Assembly: GCA_904066235.2 (NCBI GenBank)
Contig: CAJFCV020000005.1
Span: forward strand, 10,597,501-10,661,500
DNA from: Bursaphelenchus xylophilus
Lineage: Eukaryota; Nematoda; Chromadorea; Rhabditida; Aphelenchoididae
Length of the DNA: 64,000 bases
Direction of reading: 5' to 3'
Shown here: positions 28,010-47,114 of the stretch, in pieces
Numbering within the stretch: position 1 is the stretch's first letter
How the letters are laid out: every line of letters starts with the position of its first letter
Notes under the pieces: model-generated
The model's input: the letters and a program-made list of their open reading frames with translations, nothing else
What the model was told of the DNA's origin: nothing
Databases searched by the model: none
Program-made: the position numbers and the translations under genes

Positions 28010-28802
28010 ATAATACCTTATGCAACAACTAATCGCCCGAGTTTGCACTAAACTCCACGGAAGTACTTACTAAACGTTCCACGGTAAATCCGGCGAATCC
28101 CGCAAAGCTCCGTTGGGAAATAGCGAAAGCGGGGCGCTTTAATCCCTTTTCTTGGCCGGGTTATTCGAAAGGGCTTAGCCCCAGCCCTACCTACGGTTAT
28201 CTCTATTTGTTTCCCATGCAATTGCAGAATATTTTTAAATAATCATAATGGTACATCGCGCTTGTTTTTCTGTTTATTTTCCGTTTTACGAAGGGGGCTT
28301 TGAACATTTCCGGAGATTTTAGAAGGCACTTTTGAAGGCTCGGTAGAAAAATAAGTAAAATCTTGGGTTGCAAAATGGCGAAGGGGTTATCAGTCCGTCG
28401 GGAAAATAATGAGGACTCTGTCGCGTAAAAAATCGCATCGCCGCGAAAAAAGAACTGTGTCGCACAACGAACAGAAATAGAATGCCAAGAATTTTGGCAT
28501 TAATTTTCTCAATTTTTTTAAGACAGGTCGGATAAATCAGGCTCATACGCCATCAAAGGGCCATAATTTTATTAAGTTTATTATATCATATGAAAGGTAA
28601 TCCGTTTCAGTTTATTATAGTTCGATTTTTTTAGATAACAAACTTATGGTTTTATGGTAAAACTGGCCGAAAATATGCCCGTTTTTGCAAAAGTTTTGGC
28701 TCTTCTAGAGTGTAAAGTACTTTTTTTGACAAATCTGATCAGGGAGGATTGTTCAACATGTCTTTCTCTTCGTGTGGGCTAAGTTTCAACAAAATTGGTC
28801 TT
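28010..28802. other. Left flank of the retroelement
   Basis: Holds one B-family left end (about 28390-28480, GAGC-like). No gene recognised. Confidence 0.4.
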
Positions 28803-29264
28803 TGTCACGGCCGGGAATAGGCTCGGTGACAATTTGGGAGTCGGCCGGCTGGGTTTGCCGACTCCTTTTGAGAATCTTACAATTCTCCTACCTTTTCGCG
28901 GGGGTGCTGGGGATGGCGACGCTGACTGACAACAACAACAGTTGATTTTGCGATATTTTTATTGTGGGAATTTTCAGGCTTATATATTATCATCAAAAGG
29001 GCGGGATTAGCTGGAGTGTCCTAGGGCTGGGCCAAGGGGGTTGGGTCCGGCCCTAGGACACCTCATAAGTGGAATCATAAAGCAGGAGATACGGAGTGAA
29101 TGATCCGTGCTTACTCAGGCGTTTGCACGGAAAGCGGTGATTAAGAGGCAGGGGAAATGAATGTTATGGCAATCAAGAATCTTCTCGGCCCAAATTAATC
29201 ATCCAATCGGCCTATTGAAAGAATTCCTTTTTGCTATTTTTAGTATCGCGAGGGTGTCGCGACA
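28803..29264 (-). repeat. 3' LTR
   Basis: 462 bases matching 41439-41900 along its full length as far as I can see by eye; ends TGTC...GACA, followed on the left by the GTCTT duplication. Confidence 0.95.
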
Positions 29265-29414
29265 CTCCGGGGGAGGGAGAGGGAGGAAGAAGAGGAGGGA
29301 ATTTTTGGGTTACAAAAGTTTGGAACAGAGTACAGAGATTACAAAATTTTACAATAAATTTATAGTGAGCTTATCTAATTACAATAAATTTTATAGACAG
29401 GTTATCTTATCTTT
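29265..29414 (-). other. Segment between the accessory ORF and the 3' LTR
   Basis: The 45 bases next to the LTR are polypyrimidine on the coding strand (polypurine on the plus strand: GGGGGAGGGAGAGGGAGG). A polypurine tract on the coding strand would be expected here to prime plus-strand synthesis. The rest is AT-rich. Confidence 0.6.
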
Positions 29415-30863
29415 TTAGAAAGTGGGTTCCTCCGGTTCCTCTGGGCTGGTATCCGGTTGGCGGTGGCGGGAGTCGATATGTAGAGGGGCGCGGCAATTGG
29501 GGCACGTCGGGTTCTGATGTTGGTTGAGCTGGCTGGTGATCCACTCGTCTAGGCAGATCTGGTGGAAGAGATGACCGCAGTATGTGCGGGTCACTGGTCG
29601 GTCGTCCCCGGTGAGGCATATGGGGCACTGGTCCTCGTGTGCTCTGGAGGTGCTGGGCCCAGGGACGTCGTGGGGGGTTCCCAGGGCGCACAGCGAGGTG
29701 TGATGCCATTGTTTGCAGTGTAGACACGTTTTTCTGCTTGGGCATCTGATGACATCGTGTCTTCCCAAACAGTTGACGCACCGGTCGCCGATAAGTCTTC
29801 GGCGGACCGAGCGGTCAACAACGACCGTACAGTCGAGAGGGTTATGGTCAGCCGAGTTACAGTAGGGGCACGGCTGACGGCGTGCTTTATGCGGCCTCCT
29901 CATTTCTTGCTCCAAATTGTGGCGGAGGGAGGCGGCCAGGGTTTCGGCTTCATCCAGTCTGGTCAAACTTCGCCGATGCCTTTCTTCCTCGTTTTGTAGC
30001 AAGGCGCTGAGCTGATTGATCTCCTCGGTGAGCTGAGCGCCCACCTCCGCTGCGGCTAGTTGCTGGTTTCGCGAGGCCTCCCGGAGTGCTTGGATTGCCC
30101 GGTAGTGCCTCTCGTTGTCTTCTGCTAAGATGCGCCGGGTTCGGCGAGCTTCGTTCAGGGTGTCGGTGAGGGCCTGTGCCTCCTCCTCCGCCTGGTTACG
30201 GGCGGCGGCGGAGGAAGAGGCTTCGGCAGACAATTCCTCGTTGCGTTTCCGGAGTTGTTCGTTCTGTCTCAGGAGGCGCTTGGCCTCCTCCTCCGCCTGG
30301 TGTCGGGCGGCGGTGGAGGAGGAGGCCTCCGCGGTGAGCGCTTCGTTCTGCGCTCGGAGAGATTCTACCTCGCGTTGAAGTTCCTGGATTGCGTCCGACA
30401 TGGCAGGATCTTGTGGTGCGGACGTAGATGGGCCGGGGATGTCGGCGAAGTTGATTATGTCTAGCAGCGGAATTGGGCGGCAGTGGCGGTGGCGTTCGAT
30501 AAATTCTTCGTATTGAGCTTGGGTGAGTTCATCCAGGTATCTGCAGCTGTACTGGAAGACTTTGAAGAGTTCGGTCGCGACGGTTGGGTTGTTGGATTTA
30601 TCCGGATGTAGACGGAAAGCGGCCCGCCTTCGGATGCTGGCCCATCGGGACTGTGTGCGGCTTTGGAGATTTATCAGACCTAGTGCTAGGATGGTTGAAT
30701 ATATGGTAAGCAGGTCTTCTTCGGAGGGGTCGAAAAGATGGCGACATTCGTCGTTTTGCTCCTTCTGTTGGTTTCTTTTTCCACTCATGTCTGGAAAGAT
30801 TGGTATGAGACGACCGGCCATAGATTCCGGATTTTTTCGGGGGAGGGTGTTGTTTTTCAGCAT
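29415..30863 (-). CDS. Retroelement accessory protein: J domain, coiled coil, zinc knuckles, RING-H2
   Basis: 482 residues starting at an ATG. Residues about 55-112 resemble a DnaJ J domain, with HPDK at 86-89 after an arginine-rich helix and ELFKVFQYSCRYLDE after it; such domains recruit Hsp70. Residues 155-325 form a long coiled coil with an internal duplication (AEASSS...QAEEEA twice). Three Cys/His knuckles follow (CPYCNSADHNPLDC at 332, RCVNCLGRHDVIRC at 361, TCLHCKQWHHTSLC at 379) that parallel the gag knuckles of the same element. The C-terminus has a complete RING-H2 finger at 413-457: CPIC, TYCGH, FHQIC, CPNC, as in E3 ubiquitin ligases. It begins 268 bases after the env stop, inside the LTRs and on the same strand, so it belongs to the element. 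I know of no standard BEL/Pao protein with this layout. Function is inferred only from the domains. Confidence 0.85.
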   Translation of the reverse strand: MLKNNTLPRKNPESMAGRLIPIFPDMSGKRNQQKEQNDECRHLFDPSEEDLLTIYSTILALGLINLQSRTQSRWASIRRRAAFRLHPDKSNNPTVATELFKVFQYSCRYLDELTQAQYEEFIERHRHCRPIPLLDIINFADIPGPSTSAPQDPAMSDAIQELQREVESLRAQNEALTAEASSSTAARHQAEEEAKRLLRQNEQLRKRNEELSAEASSSAAARNQAEEEAQALTDTLNEARRTRRILAEDNERHYRAIQALREASRNQQLAAAEVGAQLTEEINQLSALLQNEEERHRRSLTRLDEAETLAASLRHNLEQEMRRPHKARRQPCPYCNSADHNPLDCTVVVDRSVRRRLIGDRCVNCLGRHDVIRCPSRKTCLHCKQWHHTSLCALGTPHDVPGPSTSRAHEDQCPICLTGDDRPVTRTYCGHLFHQICLDEWITSQLNQHQNPTCPNCRAPLHIDSRHRQPDTSPEEPEEPTF

Positions 30864-31130
30864 TACAGTTCATTTGTAATTGAACTGCTAGTGGTGACGC
30901 TCCCGCGGAGGGAAGTGTTGAGGAACCGGAGGATGTGGGGTTTAGGATACGAATTTTGACGACAATGGTTAGGATAAAGCAGTGGTAAAATTTTGGCAAA
31001 AGATGTGGGTTGCGTGGAAAAAACTTCTCCCGATCCATGTTTTTTTTTGTTTTGTGTGTCGAAAAATAGGAGTTGTGGTTTTTGCTAAGGACGAAAGGGA
31101 TCGGAAGAAGGGTAAGGGACCAGTGGTTGG

Positions 31131-32526
31131 TTAATGGTGGTGGGGCTTAGCCCGTTTGGGCAGGAGACCACGGCTTTCGGGGAGTTGTTGGTGCGGGCGA
31201 GGTCCGAGAAAGATCGCAGGTGGGGTGGAAGGGAAATTGTAGCGGAAAAGAAAATAAAGCATGATAACGACAGTTGCCATAACAATTAACATAAGGAGGG
31301 GATATTGGAAGATTAAAGAAGGGAAAAACCAAGCGACTTTTTCCAGAAATTGTGTAATATCGCGTAGAATGTTTCCGATCGGAACTTCATCGGCGGCTCT
31401 TGCCCACCACTGTCCAAGTTCCTTGGACGGGGGAGGAGGAATCGTCATGGTGTGAAGTTTTCCGAAAAGGTGTAGAGTTCCGTCAGATTTATCGGAGCAG
31501 GAGTAGGGACAGTTTTTGTTAAATTCAGCTTCATCGGTGTAGATGTTGAGTTGGAAGGTAATGTTGTTGCAGGGAAATGATTGGACATTTGTTCCATCAC
31601 ATTCGACATTGATAGTCGTTGGGAGTTTGGATTGGCAGAAAATGATAGCTTGTGCTCCCGAATGACAAGACTTGCATCCGGTCAATTGTTGTATCACGGA
31701 AGGTGCACACTTTGCACGATAATGAAACGTAGATATCGTTGTGTTTTGGAAGGCGATGTGAACCAGAATGGCGGTCTGTTGAGCGATTTCTGCCGTGATG
31801 GTGTGATTTTGATAGTCGATCTTTATTGGACCCGAAGTGAACGGGAGTTTTACCTCCTGGTTGTGCCATAGGTCCATAGGGTTGCGGTAGTTGCATGTGC
31901 ATTTGGTGTGGAAGTCGCTGGGGCTGCATGAACAAGTTTCATGGGGGAATGTACACTGGAATCTTCTGGCATCGTCTTCTGAGCGGCATTGGAAGACCCC
32001 TAGGCTGCCCGGAGCAGGTTGTTGGGGGTCAGAGGCTGCGGTGGTGATGGCCTCGTTGGTTCCCACTTTTATAACCATAGGTTGATACAGAATCGGTACC
32101 TGCGGAGTGGATATGGCCTGTAGAGTGAAGATCTCGTTTCCGACGTGGACGGGCTTGGCAGCCACCAGTTGTATGAGGGACGTTTTTTCGCCCACTTCTA
32201 GGATTACTGACGCGGTTATAGTCCACGTGGGGCAACGTCCTATTTGGTAAATGTTGTTGGTTTTTGGTAAGGCATAGAGGCGCCAGAAGTTACATCCCGG
32301 ACTGCAGAGGAAGCAGCCACAAGTGGCGCACCCACAGGCCCGGGTACAGTGGGAGTAGCCGGGGGCCCGACGGGCTAGGAGTGAAAATTCGGGGAGGTCG
32401 TCGGACGTGGAGACCTTTTCACATTGATATCCTTGACAGTACGAATTCGATGCCATATCACATCGATGGACGGATTCAACTGTGGTGGCAAAGTCTCGTG
32501 TATGGTAGCCGTATTTAAAGTTACAT
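31131..32526 (-). CDS. Envelope glycoprotein, distal part (phlebovirus Gc-type)
   Basis: Open from the inner edge of the TTAA foldback to the stop at 31131, about 464 residues; its beginning lies on the other side of the foldback (34361 upward). The many paired cysteines (for example CGCATCGCFLCSPGC) and the cysteine spacing resemble the phlebovirus G2/Gc class II fusion glycoprotein (Phlebo_G2 family), known in nematode BEL/Pao envelopes. Potential N-glycosylation sites are visible (NHT, NTT, NIT). A single C-terminal membrane anchor (LLMLIVMATVVIMLYFLF) precedes a short basic tail. It has no start codon of its own outside the inserted element, so as it stands the envelope gene is interrupted. 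Confidence 0.8.
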
Positions 32527-34360
32527 TTAAAAGACGATTTTTGGCTCGCTGCGTCAGCCCGTAATGGACCCGGGACATAGGAAAAAATCGATTTTGAGTT
32601 TTTTGCATAAAAATGACCGTCGACATGTGCTAAGGAAAAGCGAACAACAGTTTTTCTCAATTCTGCCCGGAAGGCATAAATTTGCTTAAATTTGTCTTTT
32701 TTGGAATTTTCGACCTGGTGACGTCATAGAAAGAGAAAATCACCCAAAATTTTGCTGGTATACGTTTTCGACCATTGGGAATTCATTTTTTTGAAAATTA
32801 AGTCTCTCAGATTACTGTAACATAGACATATTGCAATCCGGTCGATAAAAATCGACCGTAACTCCTTCGTATCAAAAATCCCACAGGATTTTATTTCAGA
32901 TTCGGATTCAGCGTAAAATTCTGCATATTATACACATAATGTGAGGTCATAACTCCAGGGGGGAGATCGCGTAGTATATTGGATTTTGACAAAAATTACG
33001 TTTGAAAGGTCGCGGGTTCGATCCCCGCTTGGTGCAAATATTGAAAACACGCCGGAAATCGCGTTTTATGGACACCTAAGGGTTATGTGAGATACACTAA
33101 GCAATTTTAAACCTTGATGCATATCTAATTGCGATTAAAACTGATTTTATATAATTTTTGGAGACTGAATATGCAAAAAATGAAACTGCTTCAAACCGCT
33201 TGAAATTGGCAACATTTTTTCTGGGGTCAATTGTAAGAAACTTTTCTGTTAACTTTTTTTGGTAGATCACCGTACCATGGATTACTGTAACATTAAACCT
33301 GATTTGGTTTTTCGTGTACCACATGGCGCATAGAAGTCGGATTGTCGTCATTTTGCTTAGAATAGTTAAGAAAGAGTTTTCTTGTGTACAAAAAAAATTT
33401 TATGGCTGTACCGTTTGGAACGGCCGAGTTATTTGACGCCCTTTCACCAATTCATTATGACATCAAGACGCGTTGCAATTAAGGGCGAATTTTCTTTCAT
33501 ATATAGGAAGAGGATCTTTTCGCTGTCTAAAGCGACTAATTAACACGATTTAATATTTTATGCAAGAATTTTTAAGAAAATTGCTGTTAATCAGGACACG
33601 TTTAACGCTACAGTAATCCATCGTACGGTGATCTACCAAAAAAAGTTAACGGAAAAGTTTCTTACAATTGACCCTAGAATAAGTGTTGGCAATTTCAAGC
33701 GGTTTGAAGCAGTTTCATTTTTTGCATATTGAGTCTCCAAAAATTATATAAAATCAGTTTTAATCGCAATTAGATATGCATCAAGGTTTAAAATTGCTTA
33801 GTGTATCTCATATAACCCTTAGGTGTCCATAAAACGCGATTTCCGGCGTGTTTTCAATATTTGCACCAAGCGGGGATCGAACCCGCGACCTTTCAAACGT
33901 AATTTTTGTCAAAATCCAATATACTACGCGATCTCCCCCCTGGAGTTATGACCTCACATTATGTGTATAATATGCAGAATTTTACGCTGAATCCGAATCT
34001 GAAATAAAATCCTGTGGGATTTTTGATACGAAGGAGTTACGGTCGATTTTTATCGACCGGATTGCAATATGTCTATGTTACAGTAATCTGAGAGACTTAA
34101 TTTTCAAAAAAATGAATTCCCAATGGTTGAAAACGTATACCAGCAAAATTTTGGGTGATTTGCTCTTTCTATGACGTCACCAGGTCGAAAATTCCAAAAA
34201 AGACAAATTTAAGCAAATTTATGCCTTCCGGGCAGAATTGAGAAAAACTGTTGTTCGCTTTTCCTTAGCACATGTCGACGGTCATTTTTATGCAAAAAAC
34301 TCAAAATCGATTTTTTCCTATGTCCACCGCTGACGCAGCGAGCCAAAAATCGTCTTTTAA
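32527..34360. mobile_element. F-family TTAA foldback element, copy 3, inserted in env
   Basis: TTAA on both sides, AAGACGATTTTTGGCTCGCT termini and mirrored arms meeting near 33440. It is very similar to the copy at 23846. It carries no transposase. Its inverted arms contain stop codons that end the polyprotein frame at 34209. Confidence 0.9.
32965..33035 (+). other. tRNA-like Pol III segments of F copy 3
   Basis: B box GGTTCGATCCC at 33015-33025 in a perfect T-arm (GCGGG/CCCGC). The mirror on the minus strand is at 33873-33883. The A box is degraded as in copy 2. Confidence 0.5.
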
Positions 34361-37300
34361 ACTTTAGCTGGAGGGTAGTCAAGCGGAGCATATATGATCC
34401 GTTGAGTGGGGTGGTGATTCGGAGACAGCTTGTTTCGTTGATGGGCCGCAAACTGAGTTGGATGGATTGGGAGAGGGAACAGGTCTCGACGTTGGATTCT
34501 TCATCAAAACGGCAGTTGTGAGTGCTCGCGGTTAAGGCGGTTACCTCTGAGCAACCATTAACCCACGGAAAGAGTCCGAAGAGGAGGTAAATGGTGCCTG
34601 TCGTCCGAAGAAGACGTCGAATTCGGTGTGGAGCCTGGTATCGTGGTTGCCGAGGGTTTTGTGGACGGCATCGAGTCCAGATCCATCTGACTGTTCGCCA
34701 AATCCAAGTGTGTATAGCTAGTAGGATGCAAATGAAAGGTATCAGAGCGAGTAATACTCCCATCCAGATGAAGATTCCTGTTTTTTGGATAGCTGTGCAG
34801 CAATCCCACCTCCAAGGGGCACAGTCCTCTGCTGTACAAGGGTTGGGCAGGGAATCCGTGGCCGAAACGGTGTTAATAAGAACTACGCCTAGAAAATAGG
34901 CGACTAGTGTGGTGGAAGAAGAATTCTTTCTCGGACTCCGTCTGGGTGGCGGTGGGCTATCTTGCTGGTTGGACGTTCTTGGGATTCCTTCAGTTGCGTT
35001 TGGGATCTCGGGTTGAAGTTCGAGTGGATAGAGGTGTTTCGGGGATCGGTGGAGGACCAAATGAGGCGGTGTAGCGAGTTGAATTTTGATTTTGTTTGGA
35101 GTGACGATCTCCAAGATCTTCGCCATTTGCCACTTTCCTCTTCCGAGTCCTTCCTCATGGACAAGCACGACTTCTCCTTTCAGTGGGAGTCGATCGATCG
35201 CAGATCTGTCCTGTTTGTGGGTTGTTTGATGTCGCTCGGCCAGAGTGAGGAGGTATTCCGAGCTCCAAATTTTCCAGAATTGGTTAATGATTCTTTGTTG
35301 CTTTCTCCAAAGATCCATTAACTTGGTGACCGATGACGGCTTAGGCTCGAAGGTGCCATCCTCGGGATCCCAAGGGTCGAGGAGAGGGACTCCGATGAAG
35401 GCTCCTGGTTGGATGCAATCGATGGGTCGGATCGGGTGAAATGATTGATCATCGATTTTTGAGGGTACAAATGTCAGTGGACGGGAATTGACGATAGCTT
35501 CTACCTCGGTTAATACCGTCATCATTTCAGGCAGCGAGATCTTTTTCTTGCCGATGGCTCTCTTGAGTGCCGTCTTCGTTACTCCCATCAATCTTTCCCA
35601 CGATCCGCCCTGCCAAGGGGCAGATTCGGTGATGAAGCTCCATTTAATTCCGCGCGTTGCCAAATACGATTGTACGTCTTCGGATTCAGCCCATGCAAGG
35701 GTGATTGCTTGAGTTGCGAGGCGGAATTGGGGGGCATTGTCGCTCCAGACTTCGGCTGGGGTGCCCCGTCGAGAGATGAATTTTCGAAGGGCCTGGAGGA
35801 AGGCGAGGGTGGAAAGGTCCAATACGAGCTCGAGGTGTACGGCCCGTGAGGTTAGACAGGTGAACAAACAGATGTATGTTTTTATGGTGTCGGTAGTGGT
35901 GATGCTGACAGAGATGGGACCACCGTAATCCAGGCCTGTGTAGTGGAATGGAGGGTTTGGTTGTACACGCATGTGTGGGTAATTGGGAAAGGGTGGAAGC
36001 GCGAACGGCTTCAACGTTCGGCAAGAACATTGGCGAATGCTGGATTGGACAAGGCGTCTGGCTTTTGGAATCCATACGCGGTAACGAAGGTGACATAGAG
36101 TAGTTGAAGTGGACGCATGTCCCAATAGTTGGTGGATATGATGGATGTAGAGTGCGGTCCCGTAATGGGGAGATGGTAGGAAGATGGGGTTTTGTGCTGT
36201 CGTAGGGAGAGAAGCATGGGCGAGCCGAGTACGACAGCGAAAAATTTGTTCAGAATCTTGATACAGGTTGAGCTCGTGCTGTTGAGCTTTTGTTGGGGGT
36301 CGTTCTTGTTGCATTAACCGAAAGAACAATTTCTCTGCAGTATGAAATTGGGTTGTGTGTGGGGTGGCCGGCGTGATGTACACGGAAAGCCAGGGATATT
36401 TCCGTTGAGCGGTATTACTGGTCGAGAGTGCGGTCGCCAGGTACTGCAGTACACACACAAGGGTGTGGATGAGGATGGTCCAACGGCTGAACCGAGTAGC
36501 ATCGATGAGGGGTATGGGTGCCATTGTTACTTCAGCGACGGCAGTGATATCCTCCGGAGCTTCGTAGAGTTCCGGTTGATTTGGCCATTGGCTTGTTGGC
36601 TGCCGGAGCCAAGCGGGACCTTCGAGCCAAAGTTGTGAAGGTGGGCAACGTTTGGTAGCCGAGTCAGCTGGGTTTTCTGCCGTGGGAACGTATCGGATCA
36701 AGGCGTTGGGGACATTTTGCCAGATGGAGTTGACTCGATTCTTGACGAAGATTGGAAGTGTTCGACGAGAAAGAAGCCATGTGTGGACGATCCGTGAGTC
36801 TGTCCAGAGGAAGATGTTGGTGAGCCGAATTGACGGTAGCTCAGTCGCAATTGTGCGAGCAAGGTTAGATCCAATGAGAAGTCCGAGGAGTTCCAGGCGG
36901 GGCACGGTCATGCCTTTTATGGGTCCCAGACGGCTTTTACCGATTAGGAATGACACATCGATAAGGTCGCCTGACTGAGTGCGAAGATAAGCGACTGCGG
37001 CATAAGCTCGGTCAGAAGCGTCACAGAACACGTGAAGTTCAGCGGAGTCAGAAGAAAATGGGCATACGTGGCGTTGGAGTGTGGGCATTGTGGATGTCTC
37101 GAGTAACGATTGAATTTGATTCCATTCAGAAAGAAGGTCTTCCTGTAGTGGGATGTCCCAGTCTTTACCTTGTTGCCACAACTTTTGGAGGAGGAGTTTA
37201 GCTTGGAGGATCAAAGGTGCATGAAAGCCTAAGGGGTCGAACAGGCTAGCGATCCTTTTGAGGATGGTTCTCTTTGTGGCAAGCTGTTCGGAGTTTGGGG

Positions 37301-40300
37301 TTTTCCAGGGCACGAGAGTGAGGATATCGGTGTTTGTATTCCACTGTAGGCCTAGAAATTTGACAATTTCCGGGATCTTTTCTCCTTGTTGTTCCAAAAA
37401 AGCCTTGACTGTTGGATGGCTGGATTGAAACTCTCGGAGGTTCATTTTTGCTTCGCTGAAGATTTGTCGTGAGAGGTGATAAGCGTCGGTAGCTTCTTGG
37501 ACGTCGGAACATTCGATAAGTACGTTATCGACGTACGAATTTTTTCGCATTGCTTTGGCCAAGGGATGTGGGTAGTGTTGGAGATGGTAATCCACGCAGG
37601 CGGCGAGGAGGAAGGGTGATGAAACGACTCCAAAACAAACCCGATTGAAGCGGAAGACCATCAGGTTGGCACCTTCCGCGGGTTGGGTGACGTCACGGAC
37701 CCAGAGGAAGCGGGTACAGTCGCGGTCACGTTCGTCCAGTGATAATTGGAGGAAAGCTTTCTCAACATCGGAAAGCAATGGGATCTTGGTAACACGAAAT
37801 CGAAGAAGCATGCCAACCAGTTCGGGGAGGAGGACTGGTCCGCGGAACATGTGGTCATTCAGGCTCTTCCCGTTGGGAGTTTTACAGCTAGCGTCATAAA
37901 CCACACGTAATTTGGTCGTGGTTTTGTCGGGGGTGATGACAGGTTGGTGGGGGATGTAATGGAGAGGTCCCTGACTCGGTTGATTGAGAGGGACTTCCTC
38001 GATAATGCCCTTGGTGAGTTGATCGGAAAAGATCTCACTATATTGTTGGAGGAGGGTTGGATTAGCGCTAAGGCGGCGGAGAGTAGAACGAAGTCGCCCG
38101 AGGCAACGGCCGAAATTACTTTGAAGAGTGGTAGGAGTGCCTTTCCACGGCCATCGACAAACGTATCGACCTTCTTCATCACGAGTGACGGTTTTGAGGA
38201 AGGCTTCCATGGCGAGATCGTCGTCGTTACGACTGGGGTCGTCGTGGATTCCCAAGTGTTCGAGGGTCCAGAATTTGGTGAGTAAGGAACTGAGCTGCTT
38301 TTGTTCCGTATGTTTCACGCAAATCGACACAGGCTCGGTTGAAGAATCGTTGGGGGTCTCCTCTGTCGGTATGGATATGTGGAATACTTGTGGGGAATGC
38401 TGGGTGGTGTATGCTGTATCACAAGTTGGGCAAAGAGTAGCATACTTGTCCTTACCGCCGACCCACTGAGAAATATCGGTGGGATCGGTGGGATTCGGGA
38501 CAATCCTTTTGCTGTAAGAGGCCGGTTCACCACAGATATCACAATTTCCGAGCAGAGTATGACGGAGATCCGCAATGGCCCATAATGGAGCGAAGTTGTA
38601 GTTTGTCTTCGGCGTAGGATTGTCGAGATAAGTCCCGTTTAGGAGTCCGGTGACGATGACTGTCTTACCGAGGTCGCGAATCTTCTGGCAGACTACAGCC
38701 AATTCGGGGAAAAAATGGGCATCGTCGATGGCCAACACGTCGTAGGCATTCAGTAAGGCAATCGTACTATTGAGGTCGGCGATTCTCATGCAGGCGTGGG
38801 TCTGGCCGTCATGAGTCACGATTTGGTTACCTTCAGTGTATCTGATGTCCGCCACGTGCCGTATTCTCAGGATACGGGATTGCTCAGGAAACTCATTCAA
38901 TTTTTCCAAGAGGAGAGTTGTTTTTCCTGACCACATAGGTCCAGCGATGGCGGTGATAGATCCTTCTGTTGTAGGCAGAGGGATCGCCATTTCCATCATG
39001 TAAGAATGGTGGGTATGGGCATTGGTTCGAGGCACTGGACTTGCCTTTCCTTCTCCATAGATGAATCGCCCTATCTTGGAGTGTGAGAGCTTGAAGCCCG
39101 AGGGGAGGTCGACTGGCTCTCCGGTACTCCGACAGATGTCGAGATTGTCCATGCCGAGAAGGATGGAGGGTCGGACTTTCGTCACGGTCAGTGGCGTTTC
39201 ATGGAAATCGCTAGGGAGGGCAGCCAGCATCGAACTGGTCATATTGGGAATGGAGAGAACGGAGATTTTGGTTGTCTTCTTTGGGTGCGCTGGATCGCGG
39301 ATGAGTAAGTTGTACGTTTTGGTGTTGAAGGTCTCGCTGTGATCTCCAAATGTGTTGACGTTGACTGTGGTTATCTCGTCGGAGAGGGGTCTCAGTTTTA
39401 AGTTGGACGCGAGTTCTTCGGTGATGAAGCTGCGAGTGCTTCCGGAGTCACTGAAAAGAACAGCAGGTCTGCTTACCTTCGAGACGTCGGGGTTGATTGC
39501 TTCCACTTCGGTGGTCATGAGTAGAGTTGTTGATAGTTTGGGCTTTGGCTTGGTATTTGTCAGGAAGGCTTGTTCTGACTGTTCATTGTCGTCCAATTCA
39601 TCTTCGTTAATAACGACATGAGTTTTTTCCTTTCGTGGATTGGAAGGCGGCCTAGTTTTAGCCGAAGGGGTGGTTTTGGCGGGTTTCGGAGCAAAGGTTA
39701 CTTTCTGCGCTGGTTTGCTTTTTTGAGCTGGTCTGCTTGGCCCGGCCGGGTTGTTACGGAAGCACATTGAGGAGTGGTGCCGTTGGTTGCAATGGCGGCA
39801 GGAATGTTTGGAGGGGCATTCGGGGACGAAATGTCCAGGGAGAAGACAATTGCGGCACAATTTCTTCAAACTTGCTTGTCGTTGTCGTTCTTGGGGTTCG
39901 CCATATTTGGAACACTTGTAGGTGAGATGTCGGCCTTCGCACAGGTGGCAGGAGGGCCCATTGGGATTTTTCTCGTCTTGGTCGGCGTTATAATGAGAGA
40001 GCACTTGATCGGGCCGTCGGGGTGTATTTGGCCGATTTGGGAGGCGTTTCTGGTCTCCATGGTTGTCGGAAATCATTCGATCGATATTTGCCTCTTTGCG
40101 GAGGACGTCTCCTACGGCATCTAACATTTGTTTTCCTTTTGGGATGATGGTGGCATCCTTGTATACTTTTTGGAGTACGTAGCGCGGGAACTTGCTTTCA
40201 ATGACCTGGGCTAGGAGGGTGGTGTCGGCTGGGTCACCCATGGACAGGAGTTGGGAGTACAATTGGTGTAGACGGGACCATCCTCGGTAGAGGTTGATGG

Positions 40301-41159
40301 ATCCCTTGTCAAGGATACGGAATTGAAGGATTTCTGCGCGGAGTCTGTGGGTGACTCTGAGGGGGTCACCGTAGAGGTCCTTGAGGGTTTGGACGGCAAT
40401 GTTGTAGTCGGCGTTAGAATTTCCAAGGTGGGAAAGCGCTGCTTTTGCCTCACCTTCGAGGCATGATCGGAGTTGGAAGAGCTTCAGGCACGGCTCCAAT
40501 TTTCGGTTGTTTACCATGGCGTTGAACAAATCCCAGAATTCATTCCATCGGCTTGGATTGCCGTTGAACTGGGGGATTGAGACGTTTGGAAGGAACAGGA
40601 GGTCCATCCAGCCGGGAGAGGGCTGGCTTAGTTCGGCGGGAGGGTTTACCTGAGTCGCAGGAGTAGCCGGCGTGCTGGGACGGGTCGGCGTGGTTGGGGT
40701 GGAGAACACGGCATCATTAGAGGGGACGATGTCCAGTGTTCCCTCGCCATTGTCGTACAGGTCATTAGGGTCGGTCAGTTCGAGTCGGTTTGATGTGGCT
40801 TCGCGCAGAAGTCCGATGCGGAGTCGGAGGTGGTCGACGGCGGTGCGACCTTCCTCGACGAGGGGGCGGAAGTCTCCATGAGCGGTAATGTAGTTGTCGA
40901 AGGTGGTCTGTTCGGATGGGTTGGTTTCGATGATGCGTTGCCATTGGTTATGGAGCTCGTCTAATCGTTGAACATTTCGGGATAGTCTTCGGAAAACATC
41001 ATGGGCAGTTTCGAAGGTGTTATAGAGTTGCTCGTCATTGATTTCAGCGGGATTTAGGTCTATTTCCTTTTGGATTTGTAGGTAGGATCGGAGGGCATCT
41101 TGTAGGCGGCGTTTTGCCAAGCCGATTGCTTGGCGGATTTTGCCGGAAGGGGAGTCCAT
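34209..41159 (-). CDS. BEL/Pao polyprotein: gag, protease, thymidine kinase, RT, RNase H, integrase, start of env
   Basis: I take the ATG at 41159; the frame is open 14 codons further but only from a GTG. Residues below count from that ATG. Pao-type gag about 185-360 (LPNVSIPQFNGNPSRWNEFW); zinc knuckles 404-466; protease with DSGS at 571-574; TK1-type kinase 734-916; RT about 1040-1290 with first Asp in LLSDVEKAF and YVDN at 1209; RNase H with D1380, E1423, D1454, D1499; integrase zinc region about 1670-1715 and catalytic D1744, D1807, E1855; then the C-terminal DUF5641-like domain to about 2050. The frame then runs without a stop into an env leader: hydrophobic segments at about 2085-2103, 2129-2152 and 2187-2201, followed by a cysteine-rich start of the phlebovirus-type glycoprotein. 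True element sequence ends at about residue 2266; the last 50 codons belong to the inserted foldback. RT has YVDN rather than YVDD, a change also found in other BEL/Pao elements. Confidence 0.93.
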   Translation of the reverse strand: MDSPSGKIRQAIGLAKRRLQDALRSYLQIQKEIDLNPAEINDEQLYNTFETAHDVFRRLSRNVQRLDELHNQWQRIIETNPSEQTTFDNYITAHGDFRPLVEEGRTAVDHLRLRIGLLREATSNRLELTDPNDLYDNGEGTLDIVPSNDAVFSTPTTPTRPSTPATPATQVNPPAELSQPSPGWMDLLFLPNVSIPQFNGNPSRWNEFWDLFNAMVNNRKLEPCLKLFQLRSCLEGEAKAALSHLGNSNADYNIAVQTLKDLYGDPLRVTHRLRAEILQFRILDKGSINLYRGWSRLHQLYSQLLSMGDPADTTLLAQVIESKFPRYVLQKVYKDATIIPKGKQMLDAVGDVLRKEANIDRMISDNHGDQKRLPNRPNTPRRPDQVLSHYNADQDEKNPNGPSCHLCEGRHLTYKCSKYGEPQERQRQASLKKLCRNCLLPGHFVPECPSKHSCRHCNQRHHSSMCFRNNPAGPSRPAQKSKPAQKVTFAPKPAKTTPSAKTRPPSNPRKEKTHVVINEDELDDNEQSEQAFLTNTKPKPKLSTTLLMTTEVEAINPDVSKVSRPAVLFSDSGSTRSFITEELASNLKLRPLSDEITTVNVNTFGDHSETFNTKTYNLLIRDPAHPKKTTKISVLSIPNMTSSMLAALPSDFHETPLTVTKVRPSILLGMDNLDICRSTGEPVDLPSGFKLSHSKIGRFIYGEGKASPVPRTNAHTHHSYMMEMAIPLPTTEGSITAIAGPMWSGKTTLLLEKLNEFPEQSRILRIRHVADIRYTEGNQIVTHDGQTHACMRIADLNSTIALLNAYDVLAIDDAHFFPELAVVCQKIRDLGKTVIVTGLLNGTYLDNPTPKTNYNFAPLWAIADLRHTLLGNCDICGEPASYSKRIVPNPTDPTDISQWVGGKDKYATLCPTCDTAYTTQHSPQVFHISIPTEETPNDSSTEPVSICVKHTEQKQLSSLLTKFWTLEHLGIHDDPSRNDDDLAMEAFLKTVTRDEEGRYVCRWPWKGTPTTLQSNFGRCLGRLRSTLRRLSANPTLLQQYSEIFSDQLTKGIIEEVPLNQPSQGPLHYIPHQPVITPDKTTTKLRVVYDASCKTPNGKSLNDHMFRGPVLLPELVGMLLRFRVTKIPLLSDVEKAFLQLSLDERDRDCTRFLWVRDVTQPAEGANLMVFRFNRVCFGVVSSPFLLAACVDYHLQHYPHPLAKAMRKNSYVDNVLIECSDVQEATDAYHLSRQIFSEAKMNLREFQSSHPTVKAFLEQQGEKIPEIVKFLGLQWNTNTDILTLVPWKTPNSEQLATKRTILKRIASLFDPLGFHAPLILQAKLLLQKLWQQGKDWDIPLQEDLLSEWNQIQSLLETSTMPTLQRHVCPFSSDSAELHVFCDASDRAYAAVAYLRTQSGDLIDVSFLIGKSRLGPIKGMTVPRLELLGLLIGSNLARTIATELPSIRLTNIFLWTDSRIVHTWLLSRRTLPIFVKNRVNSIWQNVPNALIRYVPTAENPADSATKRCPPSQLWLEGPAWLRQPTSQWPNQPELYEAPEDITAVAEVTMAPIPLIDATRFSRWTILIHTLVCVLQYLATALSTSNTAQRKYPWLSVYITPATPHTTQFHTAEKLFFRLMQQERPPTKAQQHELNLYQDSEQIFRCRTRLAHASLPTTAQNPIFLPSPHYGTALYIHHIHQLLGHASTSTTLCHLRYRVWIPKARRLVQSSIRQCSCRTLKPFALPPFPNYPHMRVQPNPPFHYTGLDYGGPISVSITTTDTIKTYICLFTCLTSRAVHLELVLDLSTLAFLQALRKFISRRGTPAEVWSDNAPQFRLATQAITLAWAESEDVQSYLATRGIKWSFITESAPWQGGSWERLMGVTKTALKRAIGKKKISLPEMMTVLTEVEAIVNSRPLTFVPSKIDDQSFHPIRPIDCIQPGAFIGVPLLDPWDPEDGTFEPKPSSVTKLMDLWRKQQRIINQFWKIWSSEYLLTLAERHQTTHKQDRSAIDRLPLKGEVVLVHEEGLGRGKWQMAKILEIVTPNKIKIQLATPPHLVLHRSPKHLYPLELQPEIPNATEGIPRTSNQQDSPPPPRRSPRKNSSSTTLVAYFLGVVLINTVSATDSLPNPCTAEDCAPWRWDCCTAIQKTGIFIWMGVLLALIPFICILLAIHTWIWRTVRWIWTRCRPQNPRQPRYQAPHRIRRLLRTTGTIYLLFGLFPWVNGCSEVTALTASTHNCRFDEESNVETCSLSQSIQLSLRPINETSCLRITTPLNGSYMLRLTTLQLKFKRRFLARCVSGGHRKKSILSFLHKNDRRHVLRKSEQQFFSILPGRHKFA
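38412..38960 (-). other. Thymidine kinase (TK1 family) domain inside the polyprotein
   Basis: Lies between the protease and RT with no break in frame. Landmarks in order: P-loop GPMWSGKTT (residues 740-748), DIRYTEGNQIVTHDG matching the region before the THD of TK1, AIDDAHFFPEL (810-820) at the Walker B/catalytic position, LGKTVIVTGLLNGTY, then the TK1 zinc site: CDIC (873-876), SKRI, GGKDKYATLCPTC (second pair 910, 913). Both Cys pairs and the GG-x-DKY stretch are diagnostic of TK1-type rather than Herpes-type kinases. The usual catalytic Glu of IDEGQF is Asp here, a conservative change whose effect is unknown. Length (about 183) fits a complete TK1 core. It would phosphorylate thymidine to dTMP if active. 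Confidence 0.9.
39762..39950 (-). other. Gag zinc knuckles
   Basis: CHLCEGRHLTYKC, LCRNCLLPGHFVPEC and SCRHCNQRHHSSMC, three Cys/His units that bind RNA in Pao-type nucleocapsid. The last two are closely paralleled in the accessory ORF at 29415. Confidence 0.85.
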
Positions 41160-41415
41160 AGTTCGGGGGGACTTTGTTGGGTTGATATCGTCTTTTAGCA
41201 CAAATCAGATAAGCACAGGTAGAAGATTCAGCAAGTAAAAGGATACAGGTAGAGGTTGGGATCAATCTTCGAAGCAGGGATCCTGCGTGGGGACTTGCGC
41301 GTGGTCTCCGCGGTAGTTGAGCTTCCCTTTAGGGAGCTGACTTCTTAGCTACCCTTTTTTGGGAGCTGCCGTTGGTTTCAGAGGCGCGATCTAGGTCTAC
41401 CTTTGGCGGACCTAG

Positions 41416-41433
41416 ATCACGTCGGGGTCACCA
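41416..41433 (-). other. Primer-binding site for tRNA-Trp
   Basis: The plus strand reads ATCACGTCGGGGTCACCA, matching the 3' end of eukaryotic tRNA-Trp plus CCA. It sits 5 bases inside the 5' LTR (41439) and fixes the element's direction as minus. Confidence 0.85.
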
Positions 41434-41438
41434 AAAAT

Positions 41439-41900
41439 TGTCACGGCCGGGAATAGGCTCGGTGACAATTTGGGAGTCGGCCGGCTGGGTTTGCCGACTC
41501 CTTTTGAGAATCTTACAATTCTCCTACCTTTTCGCGGGGGTGCTGGGGATGGCGACGCTGACTGACAACAACAACAGTTGATTTTGCGATATTTTTATTG
41601 TGGGAATTTTCAGGCTTATATATTATCATCAAAAGGGCGGGATTAGCTGGAGTGTCCTAGGGCTGGGCCAAGGGGGTTGGGTCCGGCCCTAGGACACCTC
41701 ATAAGTGGAATCATAAAGCAGGAGATACGGAGTGAATGATCCGTGCTTACTCAGGCGTTTGCACGGAAAGCGGTGATTAAGAGGCAGGGGAAATGAATGT
41801 TATGGCAATCAAGAATCTTCTCGGCCCAAATTAATCATCCAATCGGCCTATTGAAAGAATTCCTTTTTGCTATTTTTAGTATCGCGAGGGTGTCGCGACA
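41439..41900 (-). repeat. 5' LTR
   Basis: 462 bases; followed on the right by the GTCTT duplication at 41901-41905. It should hold the promoter of the element. Confidence 0.95.
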
Positions 41901-42794: not shown

Positions 42795-43370
42795 GATGCA
42801 CAGTGCGACAATGTTGCGGCATCTCCGCAACCCGCAACGAGATGGAATGAACTGTGCGCTCTAATCACGCACGGTGCAAAACGATTTTTTTGAAAAGGGT
42901 AGTTGATGATTTTGTCGCGCGATGAAACTGCACAGTGCGTTCTCTTATTGCGTCAGAAACGGCACAGTGCGTTTTTACATTGCTCCAGAAACTGCACAGT
43001 GCGTTTTTTGGCGCATCAGAGATTGCACAGTGCGTTTTTACATAGCTCCAGCAACTGCACCGTGCGTTTTGTCGCGCATCAAAAATTGCACAGTGCGTTT
43101 TTTTGCGCGTTAGAAACTGCACAGTGCGTTTTTTCGCGCATCAAAAATTGCACAGTGCGCTTTTTCGCGCATCAGAAACTGCACAGTGCGTTTTTTTAGC
43201 GCATCAAAGATTGCACAGTGCGTCTTTACATAGCTCCAGCAACTGCACAGTGCTTTTTTCATTCGTACCAGAAACTGCACAGTGCATTTTTCATTTGTCC
43301 CACTGTCAATTTTTTGTCGCCCGGAAAGTCCTCTCGGCCGTGCCGACCGCACAGTGAATTCTTTTTCTGC
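42795..43370. repeat. E-family tandem array with GCGCATCAGAAACT linker
   Basis: About a dozen units of 30-50 bases, each GCACAGTGCGTTTTTTCGCG followed by CATCAGAAACT or GCTCCAGCAACT. Unlike other E arrays nearly all 9-mers are in one orientation. The left edge has inverted units (42800-42880). Confidence 0.8.
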
Positions 43371-44102: not shown

Positions 44103-44957
44103 TAACAGGGGAAGTAAATACTCCAAGTGCGACGCTCAGATTTTCTTTAAATTTTGCACACACGTCGGGTATGGACTGGATATCAATTCCTGAAAGTTTT
44201 AGCTCGCGCTTTGCGGGCGCCGCCGAGATATCGAACGATCTTTGCCGCCGAGAGAGCACGCTAGACGTGGAGAGCGGTCTGAGGGAAAAAACGCTTTTTG
44301 GCCATAACTTTGGCAGATTCGTGCGGAAAATTTTGATTTTTTGTAGGAACATTGGGGCTTCGGTAGTTGAGCCCCCCACGAAAGGTAGTTCAAACCCCCA
44401 CTGTTTTGCCCGTTTCACACCCCACATAATGAACAAATTAGAATAATACAAAAAATGTAAGTGGGGGTTTGATCTACTACGTTGGGGGTTTGATCTAAAA
44501 CGTAGGGGGCTTGACCTAAAACGTAGGGGGCTTTATCTAAAACGGAGGGGGCTTCATCTAAAACGTAAGGGGCTTGATCTAAAACGTAGGGGGCTTCATC
44601 TAAAACGTAGGGGGCTTGTGCTGGACCATACAACTTGGATTAATTCTTTGAAATAAATTTTGGGGTTCAGAACGGACGAGGGGGTTTGTACTGGGTCATG
44701 GGGGGCTAAACTGGACTGGGGGGCTGTACTACCTTAGCCCCGGAACATTATTCTTTGCGGTAGAAATAGGCATGAAACTTTTCATGCCAAAATTCGGCAA
44801 AAAGTCCTAAATTTTGGCCGACTTTCGATCGAAAAATCTCGGTTGTTTCTGCAAAGCGCAAATTAGGATTCTCGCATATATCTTAGAAAAAATTATTTTA
44901 AATTTGTGCCAAGTTTCATCAAAATCTGAGCGTCGCACTTGGAGTACTTCCCCTGTA
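44103..44957. mobile_element. C-family element with a nested D-family element
   Basis: Ends CTCCAAGTGCGACGCTCAG and the inverse at 44920-44957, next to GGGGAAGTA / TACTTCCCC. The interior matches the copy at 17611 on both sides of the insertion. Confidence 0.8.
44355..44748. mobile_element. D-family element, copy 2, with a 24-base tandem repeat
   Basis: GGGGCTTCGGTAGTTGAGCC at the left and TGTACTACCTTAGCCCC at the right. At 44460-44625 the unit TTGATCTAAAACGTAGGGGG repeats about seven times with a 24-base period; a peptide-repeat ORF on the minus strand is a by-product. Confidence 0.7.
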
Positions 44958-45548: not shown

Positions 45549-47114
45549 ATGCCTGCAGGCGTGCGGTTGGTGGTGGTGCTGAATCTGGTCGTTGGTTTGA
45601 GGTGGGAATTTGATCCAATTTTTTAAGCATTATTTATAACATTATTCAGCTATTCAATCACGTCAACGAAAAAGCCGCTGCGATGGCGATCCCGCGACAA
45701 TCTCCGAGCCTTGTCGTCGGAGAGAGCCGCTGTTTTTCGATTCCCAAATAAGGAATTCGAAAAACACTTGAATACAAAAATCCCACACTTTGCCAGCGAC
45801 GAGCAGGTAAGTGTATCGATATTTTTTTCCCTTCGCACAGTGCTTTTTGAACTCTTCCCACACTTGTCGCCAACGCACAGTGCATTTTTATTTTGCTCTT
45901 TTCGCACAGTGCAAACCTCAAAAAAAGATGTTTGCACTGTGCCGACATTTGTTTTCCTTTTTGCACTGTGCTTTTTGAACTCTTTCCAACACTTGTCGCC
46001 AACGCACAGTGCATTTTTATTTTGCTCTTTTCGCACAGTGCAAACCTCAAAAAAAGATGTTTGCACTGTGCCGACATTTGTTTTCCTTTTTGCACTGTGC
46101 TTTTTGAACTCTTTCCAACACTTGTCGCCAACGCACAGTGCATTTTTATTTTGCTCTTTTCGCACAGTGCGAACTTAAAAAAAGCAGTTTGCACTGTGCC
46201 GACATTTGTTTTCCTTTTTGCACTGTGCTTTTTGAACTCTTTTCCACACTTGTCGCCAACGCACAGTGCATTTTTATTTTGCTCTTTTCGCACAGTGCAG
46301 TCCTCAAAAAAAGCAGTTTGCACTGTGCAGACATTTTTTTGCTTTCGCACAGTGCATTTTGAACTTATTCCCACGCTTGTCGCCAACGCACAGTGCGTGT
46401 TTGTTTTTCTCTTTTTGCACGGTGCATTTTTATTTTTCCCTTTTCGCACAGTGCAACCCTCAAAAAAGCAGTTTGCACTGTGCGAAATGGCGCAACCGCT
46501 GCGGCGAAGCCAGATTTTGCTTATGTCGCAGCGATATTTCAATGCACCGTGCAAAAACAAAAAAAAGTGAAATGCACGGTGCAAAATGGAGGATTTTTGT
46601 GCACGGTGCGAGGCGCGACAAATTCCGGGAAAAAAGCAAAATGCACAGTGCGTTCGAGAAAGAAAGAGCCAAATGCACGGTGCGCTCGAGAAAAAAACGG
46701 CGAAGCGCAGCGACAAAACGCACAGTGCATTTTCTCTTTCGCACAGTGCATTTTGAACTTTTTCCCATGTTTGTCGCCAACGCACAGTGCATTTCTATTT
46801 TTCTCTTTTCGCACAGTGCAAACCTCAAAAAATCCGTCTGCACAGTGCAAAATTCCTGGTATCAAATCATCTTTTTTTTCATTAATTATAATTTTCGGCA
46901 GACAAAGGAGGCGTATTTTACCCTTAAAGTCACTAAAAAATCAAAAATTTCCGGAACTCAAAAAATAAAAAAATTATTTTTTATATTATTTTAGGACTCA
47001 TACGAAGGCGACTACACAGCAGAAGAAGAGTACCAGCCGCTCCACAATTACGAAGGACCCCCGCAAATCCTTCCGGAAGACGTGGAGGCAACAACAACTG
47101 ATATGGAACTGTAA
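45549..47114 (+). CDS. Small secreted protein of unknown function
   Basis: Three exons: 45549-45601, 45650-45806 and 46995-47114, giving 109 residues, with phases consistent at both joins (acceptors TTATTCAG and TATTTTAG, donor CAGGTAAGT). The first exon is a signal peptide (MPAGVRLVVVLNLVVGL). The mature part has no cysteine: a basic first half (KKPLRWRSRDNLRALSSER, with dibasic sites) and an acidic, tyrosine-containing second half (SYEGDYTAEEEYQPLHNYEG). That shape fits a secreted precursor or peptide, but I recognise no family. The last codons CTG TAA overlap a good donor (CTGTAAGT), so the gene might continue into another exon. Intron 1 is only 48 bases; intron 2 is 1.19 kb, most of it the E-family array. 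Confidence 0.5.
45825..46860. repeat. E-family higher-order GCACNGTGC array, about 1 kb
   Basis: About 38 copies of the 9-mer. At 45838-46330 a unit of about 120 bases repeats four times (TTTTTGAACTC, CACTTGTCGCCAACG, CAAACCTCAAAAAAAG, GACATTTGTTTTCC). The family core TTGCTTATGTCGCAGCGATA is at about 46516, followed by the inverted half. It lies inside intron 2 of the small secreted gene. Confidence 0.85.

Follow-up and report, generated by a model that had tools for sequence, protein, structure and literature searches.

What does a thymidine kinase (TK) do inside the polyprotein of a retrotransposon? The question is raised by a stretch of 64,000 nucleotides (nt) from the nematode Bursaphelenchus xylophilus (contig CAJFCV020000005.1, positions 10,597,501 to 10,661,500; hereafter the window, in whose numbering coordinates are given), the minus strand of which carries a BEL/Pao long terminal repeat (LTR) element. 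In this element a TK1-family domain (38421..38963, minus strand, polyprotein residues 747-927) is built into the polyprotein between the protease (PR) and the reverse transcriptase (RT). An earlier note on this DNA had proposed this arrangement and the proposal was borne out; the match is not a chance one. The search against the Pfam TK profile (PF00265) that the note suggested gave E-values of 4.3e-26 with the PR-TK piece and 4.9e-27 with a piece of 200 amino acids (aa); the match scores 95.3 bits, the cut-off being 20.6, and covers profile positions 1-175 of 176. The NCBIfam equivalog model PRK04296 was also matched (E 1.3e-27), yet with 97.1 bits it stays below the cut-off of 183. Moreover, the 18 PDB sequences that match at E 0.001 all bear the name thymidine kinase, and a TK1 fold, including the lasso and the zinc subdomain, is predicted with confidence.

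All the motifs cited in the earlier note, those of the TK as well as DSGS and the YVDN of the RT, are present within a single open frame (34209-41201). Those of the TK are, on the minus strand, GPMWSGKTT (the P-loop, 38916-38942), THDG (38805-38816), AIDDAHFFPEL (38700-38732), GKTVIVTGLLNGTY (38628-38669), CDIC (38532-38543), GGKDKY (38442-38459) and CPTC (38421-38432). CDIC and CPTC align with the four zinc-binding Cys of the TK1 family and form a putative zinc site. In addition to these Cys pairs, the element retains the Lys of the P-loop and the residues corresponding to Asp58, Arg60, Phe101, Arg165 and Tyr181, in a comparison of pocket residues that excludes Val172, Val174 and Gly176.

Copies of the element were located by whole-genome searches, the contigs being labelled C1, C2, C4 and C5 (the window lies on C5). 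An intact element TK occurs at four places on three contigs, namely in the window, twice on C1 and once on C4, and the other TK matches are the exons of a single TK1 gene of the host, at about C4:5.08 Mb. A one-off insertion absent from other copies, which the earlier note had named as the finding that would count against its proposal, is not what was seen, the TK being present in 4/4 full-length copies. Each of the four has a distinct 5-bp target-site duplication (AAGAC for the window copy and TTTTG, GAATT and GGGCT for the others, all taken from the flanking sequence), and in the other three copies the frame is open over 2686, 2747 and 2747 aa. A one-off insertion or assembly join is excluded by four copies with their own duplications and constant spacing. 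The LTR pairs, compared over 462-463 sites, differ at none in the window copy, at 0 and 1 in the C1 copies and at none in the C4 copy; across 3999 nt the two C1 copies are identical and the remaining pairs differ at 55-65 positions. From the near-identical LTR pairs, the separate duplications, the low divergence and the long open frames we infer that this family has probably been mobile recently. In the C4 copy (L036), whose LTRs are identical, the catalytic position, residue 93 in the TK piece of 200 aa, is Gly.

The differences among these copies show purifying selection on the predicted TK domain. Four copies with only three distinct sequences gave, over 181 TK codons, 4 nonsynonymous and 15 synonymous variable sites, that is a ratio of 0.085 (p 8e-7), or 0.105 (p 6e-6) when transitions are weighted 3:1. 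The 330 codons of the RT have 1 nonsynonymous and 20 synonymous sites, and the 594 codons of the post-RT part have 9 and 23 (ratio 0.132). The PR gave 4 and 5 over 132 codons, with p 0.045 (0.078 weighted), and the linkers 1 nonsynonymous and 0 synonymous in one and 2 and 5 in the other. Purifying selection on the TK agrees with a functional role in the element.

The sequence inclines us, by a little, to the reading that the TK domain likely phosphorylates thymidine to thymidine monophosphate (dTMP) beside the RT of this BEL/Pao element. The polyprotein would be cleaved, or left fused, in a way that keeps the TK domain with the RT in the particle, where it would make dTMP adjacent to the RT. 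Host kinases would then carry the local dTMP on to the triphosphate (dTTP) during reverse transcription, and a benefit would be expected in cells with small nucleotide pools. The weakest of these presumed steps is catalysis with Asp replacing the usual Glu. In retroelements dUTPase excludes uracil and feeds dTMP synthesis, and it differs from TK in fold and reaction; by analogy, the TK domain would correspond, on the side of thymidine salvage, to the dUTPase found in the same slot of other retroelements. The fuller claim that this lineage evolved an RT-coupled TK, with an Asp base unseen in 247 relatives, making a dTTP precursor in the particle as a form of nucleotide salvage, is put forward tentatively and seems to us rather doubtful. 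If true, a TK in the slot of dUTPase would mean that the supply of dTTP has been solved a second time, independently, and would support nucleotide pools as a limit on reverse transcription. The element is also the source of a naturally occurring TK1 variant whose catalytic base is altered.

Several observations weigh against a catalytic TK. The Glu equivalent to human Glu98 is named as the catalytic base of TK1 in the texts of PMC8757434 and PMC4433323, the latter calling the corresponding E85 of LmTK "essential for catalysis". The element lacks this Glu, by which a catalytic TK1 is usually recognized; Asp takes its place in the window copy and both copies on C1, and Gly in that on C4, so that the "complete TK1-like core" of the earlier note was an overstatement. 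It is Glu in 247/247 readable relatives (120/120 database proteins, 55/55 bacterial and 72/73 viral loci, with one viral gap). For this comparison the TK locus sets kept were the best 80 of 414 and the best 80 of 130; 120 database proteins were used along with 55/80 bacterial and 73/80 viral loci, the remaining 25/80 and 7/80 having been dropped as they had no open frame with GPM. In addition, His stands at the equivalent of Gln100, and Trp replaces the Phe of the P-loop. Phe133, one of the two Phe described as stacking on thymidine in TK1 (PMC8757434), has Thr as its equivalent in alignment A2, within a loop that is longer in the element and poorly modelled (predicted local distance difference test score <50 at residues 129-131). 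With Glu98 replaced by Asp or Gly and Phe133 by Thr, TK activity is therefore uncertain. Moreover, the change from Asp to Gly at the catalytic site is one of the four replacements counted in the TK, the selection estimate draws on few distinct sequences, and the host already owns a TK1 gene.

The chief rival explanation is a selected pseudo-enzyme, in which the TK fold and pocket would be retained for binding, for RT regulation, for spacing or for assembly, and no dTMP would be made. We regard it as a serious possibility, given that the catalytic Glu is replaced in all copies, by Gly in one with identical LTRs, and that the equivalent of Phe133 is apparently lost. The very long branch of the TK in the trees described below (4.9 and 6.7 changes per column) also suggests altered constraint. 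Nevertheless the P-loop, most of the compared pocket residues and the Cys are retained, Asp preserves the carboxylate, and the TK ratio of 0.085 is close to that of the post-RT part (0.132). That the TK was acquired by chance and hitch-hiked in one burst of copies without any benefit appears improbable. Such a passenger would agree with an intact TK in only one family of this genome and with a protein database that gave no polyprotein relative among candidates of 825-2625 aa, but it does not sit well with the synonymous excess in the TK. Furthermore, identity to other TKs is at most 37% among the best 120 listed, which argues for a long residence in the open frame, and the start of a TK may survive in a diverged relic whose gag is 53% identical. 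It is scarcely credible that an assembly or annotation artefact fused a TK gene to the retroelement, as four copies on three contigs each have their own target-site duplication, equal PR-TK-RT spacing and a single unbroken frame, while the host TK1 is a separate gene with introns; nothing in favour of such an artefact was found.

The origin of the TK was approached through its relatives. The element TK is 25-37% identical to the best 120 of at least 536 TK proteins (from the best 7997 candidates), and among these 120, many of which have no informative name, none is named as coming from a retroelement. A protein database search with the TK piece alone gave one match, a Juncus TK, and seven phage records carry TKs at 28-32% identity to that of the element. 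With a query of 1500 aa including the TK region, none of 1007 candidates matched that region at E 0.001, the candidates being of 825-2625 aa only, so that records of 2747 aa or from the same genome could escape. Exact peptide patterns taken from the PR-TK piece had no match in IMG/VR. The gene for the host TK1 stands apart, has introns and the canonical IDEGQF, and is 30-32% identical to the element TK, features that speak against the element TK being a recent copy of it. In a quick tree of 76 rows the element groups with eukaryotic rows (Shimodaira-Hasegawa-like approximate likelihood ratio test, 97), outside the nematode clade (99). Its branch there is 4.9 changes per column long, and the program cautioned against the joining of long branches and the unusual letter composition of the element. 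When 11 of the 76 rows were dropped the element branch in the resulting 65-row tree reached 6.67 changes per column. An approximately unbiased test with these 65 rows, also by the quick method, rejects neither a nematode grouping (p 0.839) nor a prokaryote/virus grouping (p 0.135), and the likelihood of the nematode-constrained tree exceeded that of the free tree, having been overlooked by the quick search. Because the element TK has no introns, capture from a spliced message would fit.

A TK in a BEL/Pao element was not found in the open-licence literature, covered in part through titles and the starts of abstracts, or among the protein database matches listed. The nearest described architecture found is that of Atlas virus, an endogenous belpaovirus of Ancylostoma ceylanicum and thus also a nematode BEL/Pao element, for which the main text of PMC9094657 likewise describes a long Gag-Pol-Env frame, a phlebovirus-type Gc envelope, YVDN in the RT and identical LTRs. 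The element of B. xylophilus differs from it in having the TK and a RING-finger open reading frame (ORF); "thymidine" occurs 0 times in that main text. The LTR elements Juno, Vesta and TelKA of bdelloid rotifers also have, according to passages of PMC5408684, a thymidine-branch domain between PR and RT, but theirs is a dUTPase and they belong to other LTR lineages. Compared with type II TKs (human TK1, T. brucei, L. major), the domain shares the sequence family, the predicted fold, the P-loop, the lasso Tyr and the Cys4 site; unlike them, it has Asp or Gly for the catalytic Glu and sits inside a polyprotein. Within B. xylophilus itself eBxnv-1 is likewise a BEL/Pao element with a foreign gene, although it is degenerate, the gene is a nodavirus-like viral RNA-dependent RNA polymerase, and the word "kinase" occurs 0 times in the text of PMC5177903.

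The whole element spans 28802 to 41900 (outer ends) and is a BEL/Pao LTR element by its domain order, LTRs and short target-site duplications. It is bounded by two identical 462-nt LTRs (TG...CA) on the minus strand, the 5' LTR at 41438..41900 and its 3' pair at 28802..29264, which agree at 463/463 positions, the 463rd base being a chance match. The minus-strand open frame of 2330 codons (34209..41201) comprises gag, PR, TK, RT, the RNase H/integrase region and the start of a Gc-like envelope, and the order of the Pfam matches is DUF1759, TK, RVT_1 (weak), Peptidase_A17, Integrase_H2C2, DUF5641 and Phlebovirus_G2. DUF1759 marks the gag region (40167..40568, PF03564, E 3.6e-19). The aspartic protease region, from DSGS to IGRFIYG (39054..39449), was recognized by motifs, the Pfam scan giving no protease match there; its DSGS (39438-39449) we take to be that of a retropepsin. 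The RT and the following Pao peptidase region (36795..38273) begin at FWTLEHLGI and contain YVDN at 37524-37535. RVT_1 (PF00078) was matched there at E 1.3e-5 and 25.4 bits, under the curated cut-off of 29.6, and Peptidase_A17 (PF05380) at E 7.9e-50. For RNase H there was no Pfam match in the polyprotein. The integrase zinc-binding domain Integrase_H2C2 (36024-36149, PF17921, E 5.7e-6) and DUF5641 (35097-35309, PF18701, E 1.5e-10) follow on the same strand.

After the integrase region comes, in two parts, a phlebovirus Gc-like domain (PF07245), a feature resembling Tas and Atlas. Its first part (34356..34553, minus strand) matches profile positions 1-65 at E 7.8e-7 and the remainder (31758..32543, minus strand) positions 60-323 at E 1.1e-60. 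This envelope-like part of the window copy is interrupted by a foldback insertion (32573..34325) with arms of 729 nt, 98% complementary, and 295 nt between them. The earlier note mentioned neither this split nor the Asp in place of the catalytic Glu.

The RING-finger ORF is separate, encodes 482 aa (29415..30863, minus strand) and has its RING finger at the C-terminus (29490-29633, PF13639, E 2.6e-9). It lies 3' of the envelope domain and was found in 4/4 full-length copies, and fragments of it occur at other genomic sites. Over residues 314-403 it shows similarity (33%) to part of the Gag region of this same element and to part of other BEL elements. Among the copies it has 5 nonsynonymous and 6 synonymous variable sites, a weaker signal of selection than that of the TK. 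This accessory ORF may match the TK in unusualness. Directly before the 3' LTR, where a polypurine tract is expected, positions 29265-29294 are pyrimidine-rich in the sense of the element. Just beyond its 5' end there are tandem arrays at 42892-43291, 44442-44638 and 45788-46866, whose units measure roughly 32, 21 and 129 bp.

Across the genome the RT piece matches at least 25 places, a lower bound as scoring was restricted to the best candidates, and 4 of these are the TK copies. Of the 21 other RT loci 20 were read (L032 being left out). None of these 20 BEL loci has a P-loop, 15 of them having a frame long enough upstream of YVDN to judge. The PR-to-RT spacing, taken from motif positions, is 638 aa in 4/4 TK copies, and where it was measurable among the other loci (7/20) it is 374-416 aa; DSG matches at L028 (one) and L013 (one of two) were judged spurious. 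A joint alignment of BEL proteins was set aside because PR and TK were out of register, and only its counts of window-row residues were used. The RT active site is YVDN and not YXDD in 24/24 BEL loci read, with or without TK.

The candidate relic at C2:9015733 may keep a TK start. Its 27 residues are closest to the element TK among 250 TKs (score 95, the next being 83), and this score was reached by 0/2000 shuffles preserving the P-loop. The TK-like start lies 96 nt past a decayed gag piece that is 53% identical to the gag of the element. As Pfam ranks four general P-loop families over TK on this fragment, we speak only of a possible relic. The surrounding locus (L039, C2:9014537-9015795) contains, inside 1.3 kb and in that order, envelope-like and RING-like matches, which overlap, a gag-like and a TK-like match, an order that looks like the product of rearranged copies. 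Telomere-type TTAGGC repeats are abundant in the genome, and contig C1 begins with them.
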